Assembly: GCA_022793335.1 (NCBI GenBank)
Contig: JAAWCQ010000002.1
Coordinates: forward strand, 1 to 52,391
Direction: 5' to 3'
Source: Clostridia bacterium
Lineage (GTDB): Bacteria; Bacillota; Clostridia; Christensenellales; UBA1242
Length of the DNA stretch: 52,391 bases
Under the pieces are notes generated by a model. That model did not search any database, was not told the origin of the DNA, and was given only the letters and a program-made list of their open reading frames with translations. The position numbers were made by a program, and so were the translations under genes. Of the stretch, positions 45,672 through 52,391 are shown piece after piece. Position 1 is the stretch's first letter; each line of letters starts with the position of its first letter.

Positions 45672-45700
45672 ATTATATCACATAGACACTATACTGTCAA
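45672..45700 (-). promoter_or_regulatory. Strong promoter of the 372-residue protein gene
   Basis: Perfect consensus TTGACA and TATAAT with a 17-base spacer, on the minus strand, 22 bases before the start codon. Confidence 0.85.
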
Positions 45701-45819
45701 GTTTATGAAAAATTAAAAAAGTTGATAATCTGTTTATAATGCAAGTTAAGAAAATTATTTTGAAAGAAAAAACAAAGCCTTCTAATAAAAAAAATAGTGA
45801 TGCAAGCTAAGTTTGCCGC

Positions 45820-45875
45820 TTCAGCCTTCGGCAGTTAACCTTTATATAAAAAAAAGATTATAGTTTTTCTATAAT
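45820..45875. repeat. Flanking repeat, left copy
   Basis: A ~55-base sequence beginning TTCAGCCTTCGGCAGTTAAC C and running through the terminator hairpin. It recurs at 52337-52391 with one substitution and a one-A indel. Because the right copy is cut by the window end, it is longer than shown. Confidence 0.75.
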
Positions 45876-45879
45876 CTTT
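45853..45879 (-). terminator. tRNA-type terminator next to attL
   Basis: Perfect 11-bp stem AAAGATTATAG/CTATAATCTTT. The T-run is on the minus strand (TTTTTTTTATA), so it would terminate transcripts of a minus-strand tRNA ending at the att core. Confidence 0.7.
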
Positions 45880-45892
45880 ACTGGCTCCCCAA
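45879..45892. other. attL: attL core
   Basis: TACTGGCTCCCCAA, repeated exactly at 52251-52264. The complement, TTGGGGAGCCA, is the 3' end of a tRNA-Asn-type acceptor arm with CCA. Left of the core is the host repeat; right of it is element sequence. Confidence 0.75.
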
Positions 45893-46101
45893 ATGAATAC
45901 TTGCGTGAAACCTTTAACCACAAAAAACTATTTGCTAGATTTAATAATAAGTATCGACCAGCAAAAAGTCAAGCAAATTTCAATATATTAAATAAAAGAG
46001 AAAAACTTTGGGCAATTATGACTGTATTAAAAGTTGAAGAGAAAGAAAAGTTTTTAAATGTTAAGTTTGTTAAGAAGAGTTGTCTTGAATATCATAGATA
46101 A
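45880..46101 (+). CDS. Open frame at the left end, continuing the recombinase frame in the circular form
   Basis: From the att core the frame is open for 73 codons (TGSPNEYLRETFNHKKLFARFN...EYHR) with no ribosome site and no ATG at its head. It is in the same frame relative to the core as the recombinase at the right end, whose codons 584-587 also read TGSP. Joining the two ends, as in a circle, would therefore give one continuous recombinase frame of 656 codons. In the integrated state this piece is orphaned. The Lys-rich composition is protein-like. Confidence 0.5.
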   Translation, partial: TGSPNEYLRETFNHKKLFARFNNKYRPAKSQANFNILNKREKLWAIMTVLKVEEKEKFLNVKFVKKSCLEYHR

Positions 46102-46107
46102 AATTTT

Positions 46108-46132
46108 ATTTATTATAAATAATAATATAAAT
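46108..46132. repeat. 25-base AT-rich repeat, copy 1
   Basis: Identical to 52164-52188. It contains the dyad TTATTATAAATAATAA. It follows directly after the stop codon at 46101. Confidence 0.85.
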
Positions 46133-46213
46133 TTATAAAAATAAAGATAACTATAGAGTATACTACAAGGTATAAAATAATTTTTAAAAATATGTTATAA
46201 GAGATAAATTAAT

Positions 46214-46242
46214 TTGACTTGAAAACAAAATAGTGATAAAAT
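46214..46242 (+). promoter_or_regulatory. Promoter of rep
   Basis: TTGACT, 17 bases, TAAAAT. The ~130-base leader contains an ACACC/GGTGT hairpin (46248-46264) and the inverted repeat copy. Confidence 0.65.
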
Positions 46243-46330
46243 GCTCACACCAAGTGATAGGTGTTTAAAAAAAGGAGGACAAATTTTTTTTGAAACTATG
46301 ACAAAACACTTCTTAAGTAATTTTCTTTTT

Positions 46331-46351
46331 ATATTATTATTTATAATAAAT
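46331..46351. repeat. 25-base repeat, inverted copy (21 bases)
   Basis: Exact reverse complement of the first 21 bases of the copy at 46108. With it, this brackets the rep promoter region. Confidence 0.8.
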
Positions 46352-46370
46352 CATTTTATGGAGGAAAATT

Positions 46371-47195
46371 ATGAGAGAAGTAAATTTAAATTTTGTCATT
46401 ACCAATTATGATAATGGCACAACCTCAATTCAGAGGCGAAGAACAGACCCTAAGGCAGGAATGCCGACGGGTCGCACAAAGGAATGAAATAGTCGTGTTA
46501 GAAATGAGCAACAGCCATTCATCACAGTTAAACAATATGAGAATGCTATTTATAGATATGAGAAAAAACTCAAGGTAGATTTAATTAATCACGATTATAA
46601 AGTGTTGATGCTACCTACAAATATTGAAATGGACTATTTCGTTTTTCAAGCAGAGGTCAAAAAGTTTATAGCGAATTTTCGTTATGAATATAAAGATACT
46701 GAATATATCAATGCAATAGAGTGTTATGAAAATGGTTTCAATCGCTTTCACTCTCATTTGCTTGTTATCTTCAAAGATAAAGCCCCTGCTATGAATGAAA
46801 AGTGGTTGAAAGACCATTGGGGATTTGGAAAAGTTGTTATTCGCGATCCAAGAGAATTTGAAGAAAGCGACGCAATTCGCTATTTAACAAAATACAAATG
46901 GAATAATGTGCAAGATGAAAATCCTAAACTAACCAAATTTCCTCAGTTTGCCAAATTTGTTTCTACTAGTAGAAACTTACCAAAGGCAAATATTACTTCA
47001 CAAGAAAATGTGGATTATAAAACTGCTGTCAACACCGCCAACACACTTTTGCAACAGCAAGGTGCTAAGGTAAATAAAAGAACACACTTTCACGATAACA
47101 ATGTTTATTTTGATGGTGCAACTATCTACAATGTTGACAACTCAAAATCACTTGGTTTAAAAGATGACAACTTACTATTTGAGGACTTTGATTAA
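46371..47195 (+). CDS. rep: Rolling-circle replication initiator (HUH Rep) with an in-frame TGA
   Basis: Begins at an ATG with GGAGG eight bases upstream. After 38 codons there is TGA (46485-46487), then the same frame continues for 236 codons to TAA. The post-TGA section is protein-like from its first residue (NSRVRNEQQPFITVKQYENA) and has no usable start until GTG-TTG-ATG at 46602, which would remove most of this region. Counting TGA as one residue: motif I around VLMLPTNIEMD (~78), the HUH pair H127-x-H129 in FNRFHSHLLVIF, and the nicking Tyr motif Y171-x2-K174. It would nick the element's origin and start replication. Either UGA is decoded (as Trp), or the gene is a pseudogene or uses the internal start. 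Confidence 0.75.
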
Positions 47196-47209
47196 ATCTT
47201 TTAAAAAAG

Positions 47210-47240
47210 AAATATGGGATTCCTTAACCCATATTTTTTT
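47210..47240 (+). terminator. Terminator of rep
   Basis: ATATGGG/CCCATAT stem, then T7, 15 bases after the rep stop. Confidence 0.85.
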
Positions 47241-47269
47241 ATGCTAAATTTATCATATAAGGAGATATC

Positions 47270-47407
47270 ATGAAAGAAGATAAATTTGACTTAAACAAAC
47301 TGTTAGCCCCAAGCACAAGTGAAGAAATGATTTCGCAAGTTGCGTATGATATTAAAGAAATTCAACAACTGCTTAAAAAGTTGGAAGTCAAAGGTATCTT
47401 CATTTGA
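47270..47407 (+). CDS. Small hypothetical protein, 45 residues
   Basis: Not recognised. AAGGAG is six bases before the ATG. It begins MKEDKFDLNKLLAPSTSEEM and ends KGIFI before TGA; if TGA were Trp, four more codons follow (WKID) before TAA. A short helical acidic/basic protein, probably a regulatory peptide of the element. Confidence 0.55.
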   Translation: MKEDKFDLNKLLAPSTSEEMISQVAYDIKEIQQLLKKLEVKGIFI

Positions 47408-47438
47408 AAGATAGATTAAAGAAAGGAGGTGAAAGAAA

Positions 47439-47597
47439 ATGAAATTTGAAAGTGAAAACTTAGGTTATCCTTTAAGAAATATAGAATGAGAAATAACAGA
47501 CAGTGTTCTATTATTTATAGAAAGTATAATTGAAATAGTTGACAAGAATAAGCAGAATATAGTTTTAAATGAATTGAGAAACAAATTAAAAAAATAA
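47439..47597 (+). CDS. Small ORF with in-frame TGA, 52 codons
   Basis: AAAGGAGGTGA immediately precedes the ATG. Codons 1-16 read MKFESENLGYPLRNIE, then TGA (47487-47489), then the frame continues EITDSVLLFIESIIEIVDKN to KLKK and TAA. The whole is a plausible small protein only if TGA is read through, giving NIE-W-EITDS. A terminator hairpin overlaps its end. Function unknown. Confidence 0.5.
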
Positions 47598-47625
47598 AAT
47601 GAAATCAAAAGAGATTTCATTTTTT
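47596..47625. terminator. Terminator between convergent element genes
   Basis: ATGAAATC/GATTTCAT stem with flanking A- and T-runs. It starts next to the XRE stop codon TGA, which therefore functions as a real stop in that gene. Confidence 0.7.
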
Positions 47626-47919
47626 CAACAATGTCAAAATTGCTTCTTTCTTATCTTGACCAATATTTTTAAATTCTTCAATAAGTTTCATGTCTTGTTT
47701 AAATTCGTTTATATTGTGATAGAAAAATTCTTCTTCAGTCATTCCACAAGCCTCAATAATCTTCAACAACACTTCCATACTTGGTAAGAAATCTTTTTTA
47801 CTCTCAAGTCGATTTATATAACCATCGTGCATATCAATCATTTGTGACAATGCTCTTGCGGATAAATTTGCTTTTTGTCTTGCTATTCCAATACGAGTAA
47901 TAATGTCGATATTATTCAT
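47617..47919 (-). CDS. XRE-family repressor-like protein
   Basis: 100 residues; AGGAGG lies five bases before the ATG. A helix-turn-helix occupies residues ~8-60 (IGIARQKANLSARALSQMID MHDGYINRLESKKDFLPSME), with a C-terminal helix FKNIGQDKKEAILTLL. It is divergent from the membrane protein gene, whose promoter carries direct repeats (48014-48055) that suit an operator. It probably controls the element's cargo or its own gene. Confidence 0.8.
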   Translation of the reverse strand: MNNIDIITRIGIARQKANLSARALSQMIDMHDGYINRLESKKDFLPSMEVLLKIIEACGMTEEEFFYHNINEFKQDMKLIEEFKNIGQDKKEAILTLLKK

Positions 47920-48013
47920 CAATTCCTCCTAGTTCTCGTAATATATCAACATTATAAATTTAATTCGACCGCTTGCATAAACACTCTTTGCCGCAAAACA
48001 AATAAAATATAGT

Positions 48014-48055
48014 AATGTATGCTATTTTATTGACTTTTATCGCAATGTATGTTAT
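48014..48055. promoter_or_regulatory. Candidate operator: two direct 12-base repeats
   Basis: AATGTATGCTAT (48014-48025) and AATGTATGTTAT (48044-48055) are spaced by 30 bases (close to three helical turns). They bracket the -35 and overlap the -10 of the promoter at 48030-48058, as a repressor site would. Confidence 0.5.
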
Positions 48056-48058
48056 AAT
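48030..48058 (+). promoter_or_regulatory. Promoter of the element membrane-protein gene
   Basis: TTGACT, 17 bases, TATAAT, overlapped by the repeat operator. AAAGGAG follows 10 bases later. Confidence 0.8.
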
Positions 48059-48081
48059 AACTCTATAAAAGGAGTTATTTT

Positions 48082-49896
48082 ATGAAAAAATTCTTCAAGA
48101 GTTTGATGATAGTTTCTTTTATACTGGTTATTTCTATTACATATACTTCAAATTTTTTGACCTACAATACAACTAATGCCGAACAAAATGAGAGTGTAAT
48201 TAATTTATCTCAAAAAGAATTGCTCTCAAATTTCGTAGATGATTATTTTATATTTTTGCAAACTTGGAGTCACGCATATTTTGAATCTACTCAAGGCGAA
48301 CTAGATTGGATTTTGGACAAAAACAAATTGCATTATGAAATTTATTTATTAGATTTTGATAATAAGTATATGCAAGAATATCCTTTCGGCAATCTCGTTT
48401 ACAACGATGAGTTCAATATGTTTGCACTTGAGATGTATGACACAAATCAAATATATTTACTAGAGCATTATGTTTCAAATGGATTGTTAGATATAACTGA
48501 TATACTCTCTATAAGTCTTAAAGCATTGCCCTATGAATTTGGTGGGCATATACCAAGCCATTATAAAACATTAAAAACCAAAAACTCTAATGATGTTCAA
48601 TATGAAAATCTATTAGAATTATATATTCCCTCGTTAAAGAGAATATATGAGAATAAAACGATTTACCCAGATGCAACGATACAACCACAAGAAACATATT
48701 TACTTGAAAGTTATAATGAGTATTTGTTAAGCATTCAAAATTACAATTTGTTAATAAATATTTTAAATTTGAACGATAGCAATCATGACAGCCAAGATGA
48801 TAAAAATAATGAAAATACTAATGAAAACAAAGGAAATAGCGAAATGAATATCTCAATAATAATTATTATTATTTTATTTATAGTTGTATTAGCATTTTTA
48901 ATAACTGGTTTATTTCTTTTAATTAAAAGAGATAATAAAGTTTTTATTATAGTCTCATTAGTTTTATTTTTGATTTATGCAATACTTTTATCAACAATAG
49001 GTTTTCAAGGACAATATATTTATATTCTTAGTTCTGCACCAATGTTTACAATTAATTTGATTTTAATTATCTATCATAAAAAAGAGCAATCTCAGCCATC
49101 AGCAACTGCAAATTTTCAAAATGATATGAAAATTGAGGGCTTTGATAATAACGGAAAAGATGAAAGTAAAGTTGAACAACCTCCAAAACTAACTTGGGAA
49201 GAAATCAGTGAAGAAGAAAAAAAGATATACATTGACAATGCAATTAAACAACTTTATGAAAAACAACTAAATGACACAAAATTAGAAATGTCAAGACAAC
49301 AAAGAGCATTAAAGAAAGATAGTTTGGACACGAAAGAATTTTATCTAGAAGACTTGACCGATGAAGAAAAAGTGGAAGTTGAGAAAATTGCAAAAGCTGA
49401 ATACATAACTGGAGAAAAAATTGAAACTAAGCCAATAAATAATGTTCCAGCGACTGCAACTGAAACAAGTAAAAAATTTATTAAGGGCGGAATTAAATGG
49501 TTTGTTTTAAATTCTATGATTTCAACAACTGCACGAAATAGAAATACTAAAACAGCAACCTTTAATAAAGACGGAACGATAAAGATTGAGGATAATTCAA
49601 ACAAGGCAAGTGCTATTCGCCCATGTGGAAAATGTACAGCGGTGTCAGGCGAAAAACCTATTGACTTTGTTGTAGGATTAAATCCGTTTACAAAAACTTT
49701 CAGTTGCTGTGGAGTATTCCACGGATTTAGTTTTAAGAATGAAGATATCATAGAATACAAGCAAATCTCTTCAAATTCAAACAGCGAAAGGTATGAACTT
49801 TTACATATTAATGGCAAAAAAATAAGTTTGTCATTAACGCCGCTTGGAGCAGATTTGTTGAACGCAGTTTTAGGGAACGAAAAGTTTAAAAGTTAA
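48082..49896 (+). CDS. Large hypothetical membrane protein of the element
   Basis: Not recognised. 604 residues with AAAGGAG before the ATG. Residues 6-27 are a signal peptide or anchor (KSLMIVSFILVISITYTSNF), then an external domain of ~220 residues, then three closely spaced hydrophobic segments in ~257-330 (NISIIIIIILFIVVLAFLIT, KVFIIVSLVLFLIYAILLST and IYILSSAPMFTINLILIIY). A cytoplasmic-side region (~335-604) includes a Glu/Lys-rich stretch and a C-terminal fold with CGKC and SCCGVFHGF. It is the main cargo of the element; the role is unknown (cell-surface exclusion, toxin or immunity are possible guesses). Confidence 0.55.
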   Translation: MKKFFKSLMIVSFILVISITYTSNFLTYNTTNAEQNESVINLSQKELLSNFVDDYFIFLQTWSHAYFESTQGELDWILDKNKLHYEIYLLDFDNKYMQEYPFGNLVYNDEFNMFALEMYDTNQIYLLEHYVSNGLLDITDILSISLKALPYEFGGHIPSHYKTLKTKNSNDVQYENLLELYIPSLKRIYENKTIYPDATIQPQETYLLESYNEYLLSIQNYNLLINILNLNDSNHDSQDDKNNENTNENKGNSEMNISIIIIIILFIVVLAFLITGLFLLIKRDNKVFIIVSLVLFLIYAILLSTIGFQGQYIYILSSAPMFTINLILIIYHKKEQSQPSATANFQNDMKIEGFDNNGKDESKVEQPPKLTWEEISEEEKKIYIDNAIKQLYEKQLNDTKLEMSRQQRALKKDSLDTKEFYLEDLTDEEKVEVEKIAKAEYITGEKIETKPINNVPATATETSKKFIKGGIKWFVLNSMISTTARNRNTKTATFNKDGTIKIEDNSNKASAIRPCGKCTAVSGEKPIDFVVGLNPFTKTFSCCGVFHGFSFKNEDIIEYKQISSNSNSERYELLHINGKKISLSLTPLGADLLNAVLGNEKFKS

Positions 49897-50132
49897 TCAA
49901 CCTTATTCCCCTTGTTAATACAAAAGTAAATAAAATATATATCAAAACAGTTGATGCCGGAAAATAACCGTGGTTTTGCTGGGGATAGCGATAGATAAGA
50001 AGAAAAGTAAAGACAGTGAAAAACAAATCACTGTCTTTTTTCTATGCATTTAAAATTTTTGTGCGTAAAAAGGCTCGATTATTTACATCTACTGTATATA
50101 TAATTATAAATATTTAAGAGGGGGTGAAGAAA
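49897..50132. other. Region after the membrane-protein gene, with a terminator
   Basis: No gene. GTTGATGCCGGAAAATAACC G and GGTTTTGCTGGGGATAGCG at ~49951-49990 may be part of a Rep origin, but no nick motif can be proven. Confidence 0.3.
50009..50041 (+). terminator. Terminator of the membrane-protein gene
   Basis: AAAGACAGTG/CACTGTCTTT stem with an A-rich loop and a T-run. Confidence 0.85.
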
Positions 50133-50300
50133 ATGGAAGATAAATTTAATGGTGCTACAGAGTTTGAAAAAGAATTGGCAAAGAGTTTGTTTGAGATTTT
50201 GAAAGGAAAGATTATTGATTTTATGGAATATTGCATTATGACACATGATGTTGATGGCATAAATAATTTATTGAAATTGCTTGAAGAGAATAGGTTTTAA
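50133..50300 (+). CDS. Small hypothetical protein, 55 residues
   Basis: Not recognised. GAGGGGGTGA precedes the ATG. Begins MEDKFNGATEFEKELAKSLF and ends in NNLLKLLEENRF; helical, with no Trp and no TGA. It is followed by the third AT-rich repeat and the recombinase unit. Confidence 0.55.
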   Translation: MEDKFNGATEFEKELAKSLFEILKGKIIDFMEYCIMTHDVDGINNLLKLLEENRF

Positions 50301-50310
50301 GGTGGAGAGC

Positions 50311-50335
50311 ATTTATTTTAAATAATAATATAAAT
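50311..50335. repeat. 25-base AT-rich repeat, copy 3
   Basis: 24 of 25 bases match the copy at 46108; the next bases (AGCGGAA) also match those after the 52164 copy (GGCGGAA). Confidence 0.8.
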
Positions 50336-50363
50336 AGCGGAATTTTTAATAAAGGGAGAAGAG

Positions 50364-50522
50364 ATGAAAGTTGATAAGATAACCCTCAGCAAGAAAACTT
50401 TGCTTGAGAAAAAGTGAGAGTGAGTGCAAGAGGAAGATGAAATAAATTTAAATCCATTTTTTAGTGTGATATATGAAATTATGAACGAAGAGGAGAAAGA
50501 AGATGAAGAAAAAACAGAATAG
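50364..50522 (+). CDS. Small ORF with two in-frame TGAs, overlapping the recombinase
   Basis: GGGAGAAG precedes the ATG. The frame reads MKVDKITLSKKTLLEKK, TGA, E, TGA, VQEEDEINLNPFFSVIYEIM, then an acidic tail to TAG. Reading TGA as Trp gives KK-W-E-W-VQEED. The last 20 bases overlap the recombinase start (50503), so it may act as a coupled leader that controls recombinase translation. If both TGA codons are stops, it is only a 17-residue peptide. Confidence 0.5.
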
Positions 50523-52296
50523 CAATTTTGCAGTTGGTTATTGCAGGTATAGCAGTGATAATCAAAGAGAAGAAAGCATTGAGGCACAGAAGCGTGCAAT
50601 TTTAAAATATGCTCAAGACAACAACATTTCAATAATCAAGTGGTATGTTGATGAGGGCTTTTCTGCTACCAATGACAGAAGACCACAATTTCAACAGATG
50701 ATAAATGATAGTAAAGAGAAAGATTTTAATTTGGTGCTTGTCCATAAGTTTGATAGGTTTTCAAGAAACAGCAACGACTTTGCGAATTATAAATTTATAT
50801 TGAAATGTAATGGTGTGAAATTATATTCAGTGCTTGAGAGAATTGAAGATACACCAGAGGGCAAAATTTTGGAAGGTCTTTTACAAGGAATGGCAGAATA
50901 TTATTCTGCAAACCTTTCAAGAGAAACAATGAAAGGAATGAAAGAGAATGCTTATAAAGGTATGTGTTGTGGTGGCATTCCGCCTTATGGGTATAAGCGA
51001 GTGCCAAGAGAAGTGAATGGTGTAATTCAATATAATAAAAAGGGATTGCCTCTTCATTCCACTGTCATCGACCCAATTAATGCGGAAGCGGTCAAGTTGA
51101 TGTTTAATATGACTTTAGAGGGAAAGAAAAGAATTGAAATAATAGACAAATTAAATGAACTTGGTTTCAAAGATTATAAAAATAGACCTTTCAAGAACAC
51201 AACCTCAATAGACAATGTTTTGAGAAATGAGAGATACACTGGGGTTTATATTTTTAATCAATATAAGAAGAAAATCACTTTTAATGGTATAAGCAAAGAA
51301 TTAAATGAAGAAAGTGAAGTGATAAGAATTGAAAATGGACTACCTCAAATCATATCAAAAGAAACCTATATGAATGTTCAAAAGATTTTGGCTCAAAGAG
51401 TACATAAGACACCAAGCAATGTTAAAGAGAAATATTTGTTGTCTGGAAAAGTTGTTTGTGGAGAATGTGGAAAGCATTATCAAGGTTGGAAGAAAGAAAC
51501 AAAAACTGCAAAGCATGTTTATTATAAATGTTTAGGGAATGGAAGATACACTCATAGTCAAGAGAAAGAAGATTACTGCAATAATACAGCAATACGAAGA
51601 GATGACCTTGAAGAGTTTGTTGTGAAAGAAATTTTAAAAGTTTTGTCTTGCGAAAATATTGTTGATGAACTTTTTGATAAATATAATGCTTATTTGAAGG
51701 AACAAAAAAGCAATTCTTCTCTTATTGATAATTTAAAAAAGAAGATTGACAACATCAATTCACAAATTGCAAATGTAGTAAATTTTATTGCTCAAGGACA
51801 ATATGTTGAAATTATGACTGACAAACTTCAACAACTTGACAATGAAAAGAAAGAGATAAATGCTGTGTTGACCAATGAACTTGAGGGATTGAAAGAAATA
51901 AGTATAAGCAAGGAACAACTTAAAATCGCAATATCAAAGGCAATAGAAATCTTGAAAAACAAAAATGCAAGTTTTGAGAAAAGAAAGTTGATTGTGCAAA
52001 CTTTCTTAAATAAGGTTGTTGTTTACAAAAATGAGGTTGAAATTTATATAAATATAATCCCCGCAAATTCCTGCGGGGATTTCTCTTTAGAGATAACTAA
52101 CAAAGATATTGCTTCTTGGGGGTTAAAAGGGGGATATGCGGGGCTAAGCGGAGATAATAATTTATTTATTATAAATAATAATATAAATGGCGGAAATGAG
52201 ATTGAAAATTATAATAAAAAAGTTGCGGGTATGGTTACCTGCAACTCAAGTACTGGCTCCCCAAGTAGGACTCGAACCTACGACCTATCGGTTTAA
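50503..52296 (+). CDS. Large serine recombinase (site-specific integrase)
   Basis: 597 residues as read; GAGGAG precedes the ATG. Residues 9-~150 are the resolvase catalytic domain: GYCRYSSDNQREESIEAQ with nucleophile S17, DEGFSATNDRRPQFQQM and FDRFSRN. Residues ~160-270 are the recombinase domain, ~310-370 a zinc ribbon (CGECGKHY with later Cys pairs), then a coiled coil (~400-450). The typical family end is near KNEVEIYINI (~518); from there the frame passes through a terminator-like hairpin (52056-52081) and the AT-rich repeat, enters attR at codon 584 (TGSP) and ends in host tRNA-derived codons (SRTRTYDLSV). It should catalyse integration and excision of this element. Confidence 0.9.
   Translation: MKKKQNSNFAVGYCRYSSDNQREESIEAQKRAILKYAQDNNISIIKWYVDEGFSATNDRRPQFQQMINDSKEKDFNLVLVHKFDRFSRNSNDFANYKFILKCNGVKLYSVLERIEDTPEGKILEGLLQGMAEYYSANLSRETMKGMKENAYKGMCCGGIPPYGYKRVPREVNGVIQYNKKGLPLHSTVIDPINAEAVKLMFNMTLEGKKRIEIIDKLNELGFKDYKNRPFKNTTSIDNVLRNERYTGVYIFNQYKKKITFNGISKELNEESEVIRIENGLPQIISKETYMNVQKILAQRVHKTPSNVKEKYLLSGKVVCGECGKHYQGWKKETKTAKHVYYKCLGNGRYTHSQEKEDYCNNTAIRRDDLEEFVVKEILKVLSCENIVDELFDKYNAYLKEQKSNSSLIDNLKKKIDNINSQIANVVNFIAQGQYVEIMTDKLQQLDNEKKEINAVLTNELEGLKEISISKEQLKIAISKAIEILKNKNASFEKRKLIVQTFLNKVVVYKNEVEIYINIIPANSCGDFSLEITNKDIASWGLKGGYAGLSGDNNLFIINNNINGGNEIENYNKKVAGMVTCNSSTGSPSRTRTYDLSV
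52056..52081 (+). terminator. Terminator-like hairpin inside the recombinase frame
   Basis: AATCCCCGCA/TGCGGGGATT with a six-base loop, followed by TCTCTTT. It suggests the mRNA ends here and that the downstream codons are not always transcribed. Confidence 0.55.
52164..52188. repeat. 25-base AT-rich repeat, copy 4
   Basis: Identical to 46108-46132, within the recombinase reading frame near the right end. Confidence 0.85.
52251..52264. other. attR: attR core
   Basis: TACTGGCTCCCCAA, the exact copy of 45879-45892. To its right, GTAGGACTCGAACCTAC is the T arm of a minus-strand tRNA. Confidence 0.75.
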
Positions 52297-52336
52297 TTCC
52301 GCTTTGCTCCATACGCAGGACTTGAAGTCCTTAGCG
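52252..52336 (-). pseudogene. tRNA-Asn-like 3' portion (degenerate)
   Basis: On the minus strand the 3' end reads GTAGG-TTCGAGT-CCTAC-TTGGGGA-G-CCA: a T arm, 3' acceptor strand, discriminator G and CCA, as in tRNA-Asn. Upstream, the anticodon-arm position reads CGG-AATTAAA-CCG, which lacks U33 and the GTT anticodon, and the 5' half is replaced by hairpins (GCC/GGC and ACGC-AGGACT/AGTCCT-GCGT). There is no 5' acceptor strand TCCCCAA, so this is not a functional tRNA. It parallels the tRNA-Ile-derived units. Confidence 0.55.
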
Positions 52337-52391
52337 TTCAGCCTTCGGCAGTTAACCTTTGTATAAAAAAAGATTATAGTTTTTCTATAAT
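52337..52391. repeat. Flanking repeat, right copy (cut by window end)
   Basis: Matches 45820-45875 with one substitution and one A indel. The sequence probably continues into another tRNA-Asn end beyond the window. Confidence 0.7.

Follow-up and report, generated by a model that had tools for sequence, protein, structure and literature searches.

Structure of the locus

The window analysed here is the whole stretch of 52 391 nucleotides from a Clostridia bacterium (assembly GCA_022793335.1, contig JAAWCQ010000002.1), which forms one entire contig, C9, of a 1.41-Mb host genome in 17 contigs. Close to its right end it carries an integrated element, with 6.37 kb between two copies of an attachment (att) core, TACTGGCTCCCCAA (left core at 45879–45892 and right core at 52251–52264, both on the forward strand). 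The contig terminates just past the right edge of the element. A large serine recombinase is encoded at 50503–52296 on the forward strand; in the integrated state it reads as 597 codons, with matches to the Pfam families Resolvase, Recombinase and Zn_ribbon_recom, and with antisense tRNA codons after the residues TGSP. From the left core onward runs an open segment of 73 codons and a stop (45880–46101, stop codon at 46099–46101, forward strand), which is in the same frame as the recombinase across the core and is the candidate C-terminus of a circular form of the element.

The insertion is associated with a tRNA-Asn gene. An intact tRNA-Asn(GTT) sits on host contig C15, the end of which overlaps the right end of the window by 95 identical bases. 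Reading the window against this gene revealed a partial tRNA-Asn, the 3' half, beside the right end of the element (52254–52293, reverse strand); ARAGORN did not find a tRNA gene at the right end of the window, and by its sequence the piece duplicates, incompletely, the 3' half of the tRNA-Asn. An A/T-rich hairpin on the host side of the left junction (45848–45879, reverse strand) has the same sequence as the hairpin directly 3' of the intact gene in C15, giving the order partial tRNA-Asn 3' half, element, hairpin in the window. Because the simple terminator scan did not list this hairpin, it is regarded here only as a putative terminator. Imperfect tRNA-like pieces with the common stretch TGCGTATGGAGCAAAGCGGAATTAAACCGAT occur around the intact tRNA-Asn (locus L005, 5040–5449, the end of C15; window, 52290–52391) and look as if the site had been hit repeatedly.

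The recombinase frame continues across the core

A first-pass annotation of this DNA had proposed that the recombinase reads through the right junction, attR, into host codons and that its frame resumes at the opposite end of the element. Both parts were confirmed. The integrated reading ends in TGSP SRTRTYDLSV, antisense to tRNA-Asn, with its stop ten codons past TGSP, while the left end reads TGSPNEYL... and stays open for 73 codons from 45880. Both cores have the same codon phase, and the reconstructed circle contains the predicted open reading frame (ORF) of 656 codons (583 before the core plus 73); an out-of-frame junction was looked for, and the reconstructed junction was in frame. At the local base composition the chance of a random open frame of 73 codons is about 6×10⁻⁴, in line with the view that one would be unlikely. 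A protein end at a hairpin near 52056 had been named as a contrary outcome and was ruled out, as the recombinase frames of relatives extend past the position of this hairpin (52056–52081).

Related elements at six kinds of tRNA gene

Conservation of the segment in relatives had been named as a further check, and the 73-codon segment proved to be conserved. With the segment of the window as query, a homologue was found in 5 of 100 relatives (E 0.01), all of the same genus, and each adjoins a core resembling a tRNA 3' end. A hidden Markov model (HMM) built from six segments had matches in 23 of the 112 genus genomes (E 0.05) and in 11 of the 396 genomes from the order (E 0.01). Of these, 11 and seven, respectively, were accepted, with genomes G000 and G005 common to both sets. 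The accepted matches include weak ones in G059 (E 0.0035) and G062 (E 0.003), kept for their recombinase, and in G441 (E 0.0023), accepted on sequence likeness alone; rejected matches that were fetched (G055, G060, G056, G105, G229, G269 and a second place in G149) had no recombinase in the fetched stretch. An HMM of 14 sequences matched two of 391 genomes of the class at E 0.001, namely the host's own genome and G062. A scan of GTDB contigs with nine recombinases (best 79 loci), together with 84 viral-contig loci, gave 163 loci. The segment was present in 18 of these listed loci, always in a different ORF from its recombinase, with which it shares the strand and which lies downstream. Carriers in the GTDB scan were labelled as uncultured Clostridia, Firmicutes, Christensenella and Bacillota. 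The segment of G004 had no match in plasmid and phage collections at E 0.1.

Seventeen elements, including that of the window, each had both their ends on a single contig, and the core had the same codon phase at both ends in all of them. Beyond the core they have 56–73 codons in the circle and 1–77 host codons in the integrated state, with one frame running off its contig. Cores were picked by hand from words shared near the element ends, including short ones of 6–7 bases, and lie at six kinds of tRNA gene as named by ARAGORN: GGCTCCCC at tRNA-Asn, GCAACCA at tRNA-Met, TCACCA and TGGTGATCCCGA at tRNA-Glu, GCACCA at tRNA-Leu, CGTCCCAAAA at tRNA-His and CAACCAA at tRNA-Ile. ARAGORN did not find a tRNA gene at the G059 locus (L117), and the ARAGORN scan covered loci other than L111. 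Because all 17 elements are in frame at six kinds of tRNA, the in-frame continuation, as read from these sequences, is not chance. One contig carries two elements, at tRNA-His (L107) and tRNA-Ile (L135), and in both the segment shares the frame of the recombinase of the same element. Recombinases that are nearly identical but sit at different sites part right after the core (QP in L120, L121, L122 and L123; FG in L111–L115 and L117).

The set of 17 leaves aside elements with incomplete ends: G038, with its ends on two contigs (in frame by eye); L130, with a cut recombinase; L115, with a cut left end; G005, G039, G177, G160 and G441, with a left end only, where the contig ends 0.4–3.1 kb on; and L109, L116, L118, L119, L121 and L122, with a right end only, where the contig ends upstream. 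The G039 locus (L016) was considered as a possible intact attP. The frame is interrupted by a stop a short way upstream, and the ORF beyond it does not visibly resemble the recombinase, so the locus was provisionally treated as a left end beside other DNA. The region before its left core (L016, from contig C110, 3080–3370) resembles the right-end tail of the window (NAGKVTCNSISGS vs VAGMVTCNSSTGS), with the frame closed by that stop.

Conservation, selection and co-variation of the segment

An alignment of 14 segments contained one invariant leucine and a loose K-x-x-LW...KxKL...LKFVK pattern. Ratios of non-synonymous to synonymous substitution rates (dN/dS) of 0.05–0.30 were obtained in five of ten pairs tested (G010/G038, 0.016/0.304; G000/G108, 0.516/1.792; G062/G441, 0.265/0.947; G059/G160, 0.316/1.044; G160/G441, 0.255/1.203). 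Segment identity tracks the identity of the element's own recombinase (Mantel r 0.94 for 17 elements and 0.85 for 14 representatives; 0 of 20 000 permutations each). The segments of G004 (L012) and G149 (L085) are identical while their recombinases are 79 % identical, and the tail module may, judging by this pair, move between elements by recombination.

Two functions for the segment were considered and set aside. LAA and VAA, the two endings checked for an ssrA-like degradation tag, are absent from the C-termini of all 24 segments. A domain resembling a recombination directionality factor (RDF) is disfavoured as first choice; the circle, the state from which integration has to start, contains the segment, and there is no family match.

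The recombinase and its phylogeny

The Pfam domains of the recombinase (PF00239, PF07508 and PF13408) all scored above cut-off, identifying it as a large serine recombinase; in PHROGs it matches the integrase family phrog_95, and its matches among solved structures include the TP901-1 and A118 integrases. Residues Y13, R15, S17 and Q21 are invariant in 20 recombinase sequences, and S17 is presumably the catalytic serine. An AlphaFold2 model based on 20 sequences showed an integrase body with long helices at 405–430 and 436–464 (mean predicted local distance difference test score, pLDDT, 76; predicted template modelling score 0.42). Residues 521–583, the tail directly before the core (52063–52251, forward strand), are predicted to be unstructured (pLDDT <50). 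Integration would, by this model, alter only what follows the linker and core.

In a quick tree of 46 recombinases the segment carriers cluster (4 changes vs about 14.8 in shuffles). Six non-carriers lie among them (L109, L116, L118, L119, L121 and L122), and their left ends may simply be missing because their contigs end 0.2–4.4 kb upstream; the genome of L109, G038, has a left end on another contig. None of 20 rows in the other part of the tree matches the segment, an absence that is firm for the 11 with about 10 kb upstream, the others having less. L147 falls outside the cluster on a long branch. Also outside the clade, the recombinases of L126, L127, L140 and L143 end in peptides resembling antisense tRNA (e.g. 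GEGSRTPVRKP); these loci had no match to this segment, their other ends not having been examined for a continuing frame. Reading through attR may, by these peptides, be wider than this clade.

Hairpins and other features of the element

Within the recombinase tail, on the opposite strand, a hairpin followed by a T run in the tRNA direction (52216–52250, reverse strand) is a possible replacement terminator for the tRNA. None of 40 shuffled sequences was as stable, and the simple terminator scan did not list it. The shuffling test covered 11 of the 17 elements. Where the recombinase end abuts the tRNA, the tail hairpin toward the tRNA beat 40 of 40 shuffles in six of six elements; where the left end does, results were mixed, with 2 (G050), 27 (G004), 0 (L106), 3 (L107) and 4 (L135) of 40 shuffles as stable.

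A Pfam scan covered nine proteins of the element region. A replication protein of the REP_ORF2-G2P family (46371–47195, forward strand) is followed by a helix-turn-helix protein (47617–47922, reverse strand) and a protein of 604 aa (48082–49896, forward strand) for which Pfam gave no match at E 0.001; the element also holds small ORFs. A promoter-like site, TTGACT-17-TAAAAT, lies ahead of the replication gene (46214–46242, forward strand) and was assigned by consensus match alone, with ten such sites found in 45700–46500 against 4.9 expected from shuffling. Three copies of an AT-rich repeat (about ATTTATTATAAATAATAATATAAAT) are spread over the element (46096–46132, 50311–50342 and 52152–52188), one at the stop of the post-core segment and one within the recombinase tail.

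A single in-frame TGA interrupts the replication gene unless it is translated as tryptophan; the coordinates 47439–47597 and 50364–50522 were recorded alongside it. Eight of 18 loci with a replication homologue hold one to four TGA codons in the aligned part (seven distinct genes, L107 and L135 showing the same one). Of these 19 codons, 12 stand opposite tryptophan, and no TAA or TAG was found, in a search that was itself run with TGA as tryptophan and whose alignments tend to stop at TAA or TAG. The host genes look standard (39 ORFs of at least 150 codons, five ending in TGA), and the host genome, 95.6 % complete, has 39 tRNA genes found, including tRNA-Trp(CCA), and none with a UCA anticodon. 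Leaky read-through or an origin in a host that reads TGA as tryptophan would each be of interest.

Comparison with known systems

The exchange of an integrase C-terminus by integration is already published, for phage Mx8 and for streptococcal rumA integrative and conjugative elements (ICEs). In Mx8, attP lies inside the integrase gene and integration gives int a new 3' end. By one account a C-terminus of 112 residues is swapped for 13 residues and the product is less active, and by another the enzyme stays active with a changed specificity (PMC6070905, PMC4701971). The Mx8 enzyme is a tyrosine integrase of a tailed phage, from an unrelated family, whereas the window enzyme has serine recombinase domains. 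Closer in enzyme type are the rumA ICEs, with a single serine integrase, and the integrative and mobilizable element (IME) IME_Spy2096_SNF2, in which one att site is within the integrase gene; in the rumA ICEs exchange alters the C-terminal ends of both proteins and the translation frame (PMC4701971, PMC5357655). As proposed here, integration changes the length and sequence of the C-terminus of a serine integrase, and the authors suggest that the forms may differ. However, those ICEs or IMEs target protein genes (rumA, snf2), while the insertion in the window is at tRNA-Asn and the junctions of its relatives are at tRNA genes. The passages on the rumA ICEs do not mention a conserved segment across attP, a distinction drawn from description and not from a comparison of sequences. 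An att core inside the integrase frame with the other end continuing that frame, the arrangement of Mx8 and the rumA ICEs, was found in all 17 elements.

In mycobacteriophage BPs, attP lies in the repressor frame; the protein made after integration is shorter and works differently, and an ssrA-like degradation tag ends the longer form (PMC4557955). In BPs the repressor gene is split, here the recombinase gene; the 24 segments all lack a terminal LAA or VAA, and a switch of the BPs type was not found. SSV-type integrases are archaeal tyrosine recombinases whose gene is split in two by integration. They are alike in having a gene across attP at a tRNA gene. The Islander study (2014) makes provision for Mx8 and SSV integrases that reach across attP, and states that the integrases known to target tRNA genes are all of the tyrosine type (PMC4383910). 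A 2011 survey lists phiRSM1 and Mycobacterium actinomycete ICEs as rare serine recombinases inserting into tRNA genes (PMC3218068); its passages on them mention no C-terminal swap, and here one clade uses six tRNA kinds. In engineered fusions of serine integrase and RDF, the fused C-terminal RDF controls direction and favours excision (PMC5737554), unlike the natural segment, which is present in the circle, where integration must happen. As far as searched, what is new is a clade of tRNA-targeting serine recombinases that keeps a conserved in-frame tail across attP; no description of it was found in the literature searched, which lacks most subscription papers.

Interpretation

There is little doubt about the gene architecture as read, a recombinase frame that continues across attP. 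The core positions and the shared frame, found in 17 of 17 elements, the conservation of the segment, purifying selection in several pairs, co-variation with the recombinase and the lack of a usable start in four of 24 segments give strong comparative support to the proposed exchange of the C-terminus on integration, which remains a reconstruction, no circular copy having been seen. It is probable that, overall, attP lies inside the recombinase gene, integration swaps a conserved tail and the truncated form acts differently; that the swap itself brings a real change of activity is an evenly balanced proposition. We infer the formation of a circle, translation of the complete frame from it, integration by the full-length enzyme and a difference in action of the truncated one. 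A replicative mobile element would carry attP within its recombinase gene, with a flexible linker encoded on one side of it and the conserved C-terminal segment on the other. The circle would make the full-length enzyme, which would insert the element at a tRNA gene's 3' end. Crossover there would swap the segment for host-encoded codons, leaving the integrated copy with a truncated enzyme as its sole product, which would be weaker or would favour excision. The enzyme would differ with the state of its own DNA, with no outside factor. Because the segment is present when integration must happen, it would be expected to aid integration or restrain excision, and its loss would bring lock-in or released excision. 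A true direction switch in DNA topology, in which the full-length form performs attP × attB and the truncated form attL × attR, with no separate directionality factor, in replicative elements in tRNA genes, is a tentative and on balance doubtful extension; the published parallels describe lower or altered activity of the integrated form and not a proven direction switch (PMC6070905, PMC4701971).

Several results weigh against the exchange of a functional tail. As a control, other exact words of at least 7 bases shared by both coding tails were in frame in 92 of 192 cases, which makes the frame match alone weaker than it looks; given this control, the chance of the frame match alone is 3.7×10⁻⁶ for 17 elements and about 1×10⁻³ assuming nine independent lineages. 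Recombinase and segment were in one ORF in none of the 163 listed loci, and an exact search for the joined junction of the window in viral contigs gave no match. AlphaFold2 applied to the segment alone (15 sequences) gave a pLDDT of 55 and no confident model, and was not used. The other five of the ten selection pairs were uninformative or less clear: dN/dS was 0.023/0.066 in G004/G005 and in G005/G149 (few changes) and 0.50/0.95 in G004/G148, the G004 and G149 segments were identical, and G059/G062 had two non-synonymous changes and no synonymous change.

Other explanations would give the segment a lesser or a different role. It is unlikely that the arrangement is mere economy, with attP happening to fall in the gene and no regulation involved. 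The truncated form does keep the whole predicted integrase fold and might work as well as the full one, but the segment is conserved and under purifying selection in several pairs, which argues that it does something in the circle. Reading across attP could instead serve to join the recombinase to downstream genes, in transcription and translation, that integration then cuts apart. The segment stop overlaps the start of the next gene in G004, G005, G149 and G148, and in G010 an ATG follows 13 bases after it, so that the recombinase gene would be the first of an operon in some circles, and integration would break that operon up. In the window, however, the next gene begins 270 bases past the segment, behind the promoter-like site, and operon coupling by itself would not conserve amino acids. 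As the main role of the segment such coupling is quite unlikely, although it is compatible with the exchange of a conserved tail and does not exclude it.

Independent translation of the left end into a small protein, such as a directionality factor, from a start codon within it, with the frame match a mere coincidence, is very unlikely. Of the 24 segments, 20 have a start codon ahead of codon 60, the window segment having a TTG at codon 8; in the other four the first ATG, GTG or TTG is at codon 70 (G004, G005 and G149) or codon 60 (G148), so that these segments can only be a protein's tail. All 17 elements are moreover in frame, and neither Pfam, for the window segment, nor PHROGs, for four segments tested, returned a match. 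The second, partial tRNA-Asn at the window locus makes earlier insertions possible, and with them a dead remnant; set against the 17 in-frame elements, the conservation, the selection and the co-variation, a remnant or a chance frame has almost negligible probability.

What decides whether a serine integrase integrates or excises is of importance to phage biology and to genome-engineering tools. With a conserved tail that would be exchanged on integration, this clade offers natural enzyme pairs that would differ only in that short tail, each tied to one DNA state, and the tail might serve as a one-protein handle on direction. The clade also adds serine recombinases that insert at several tRNA kinds, a habit called rare in the survey passages cited above (PMC3218068).

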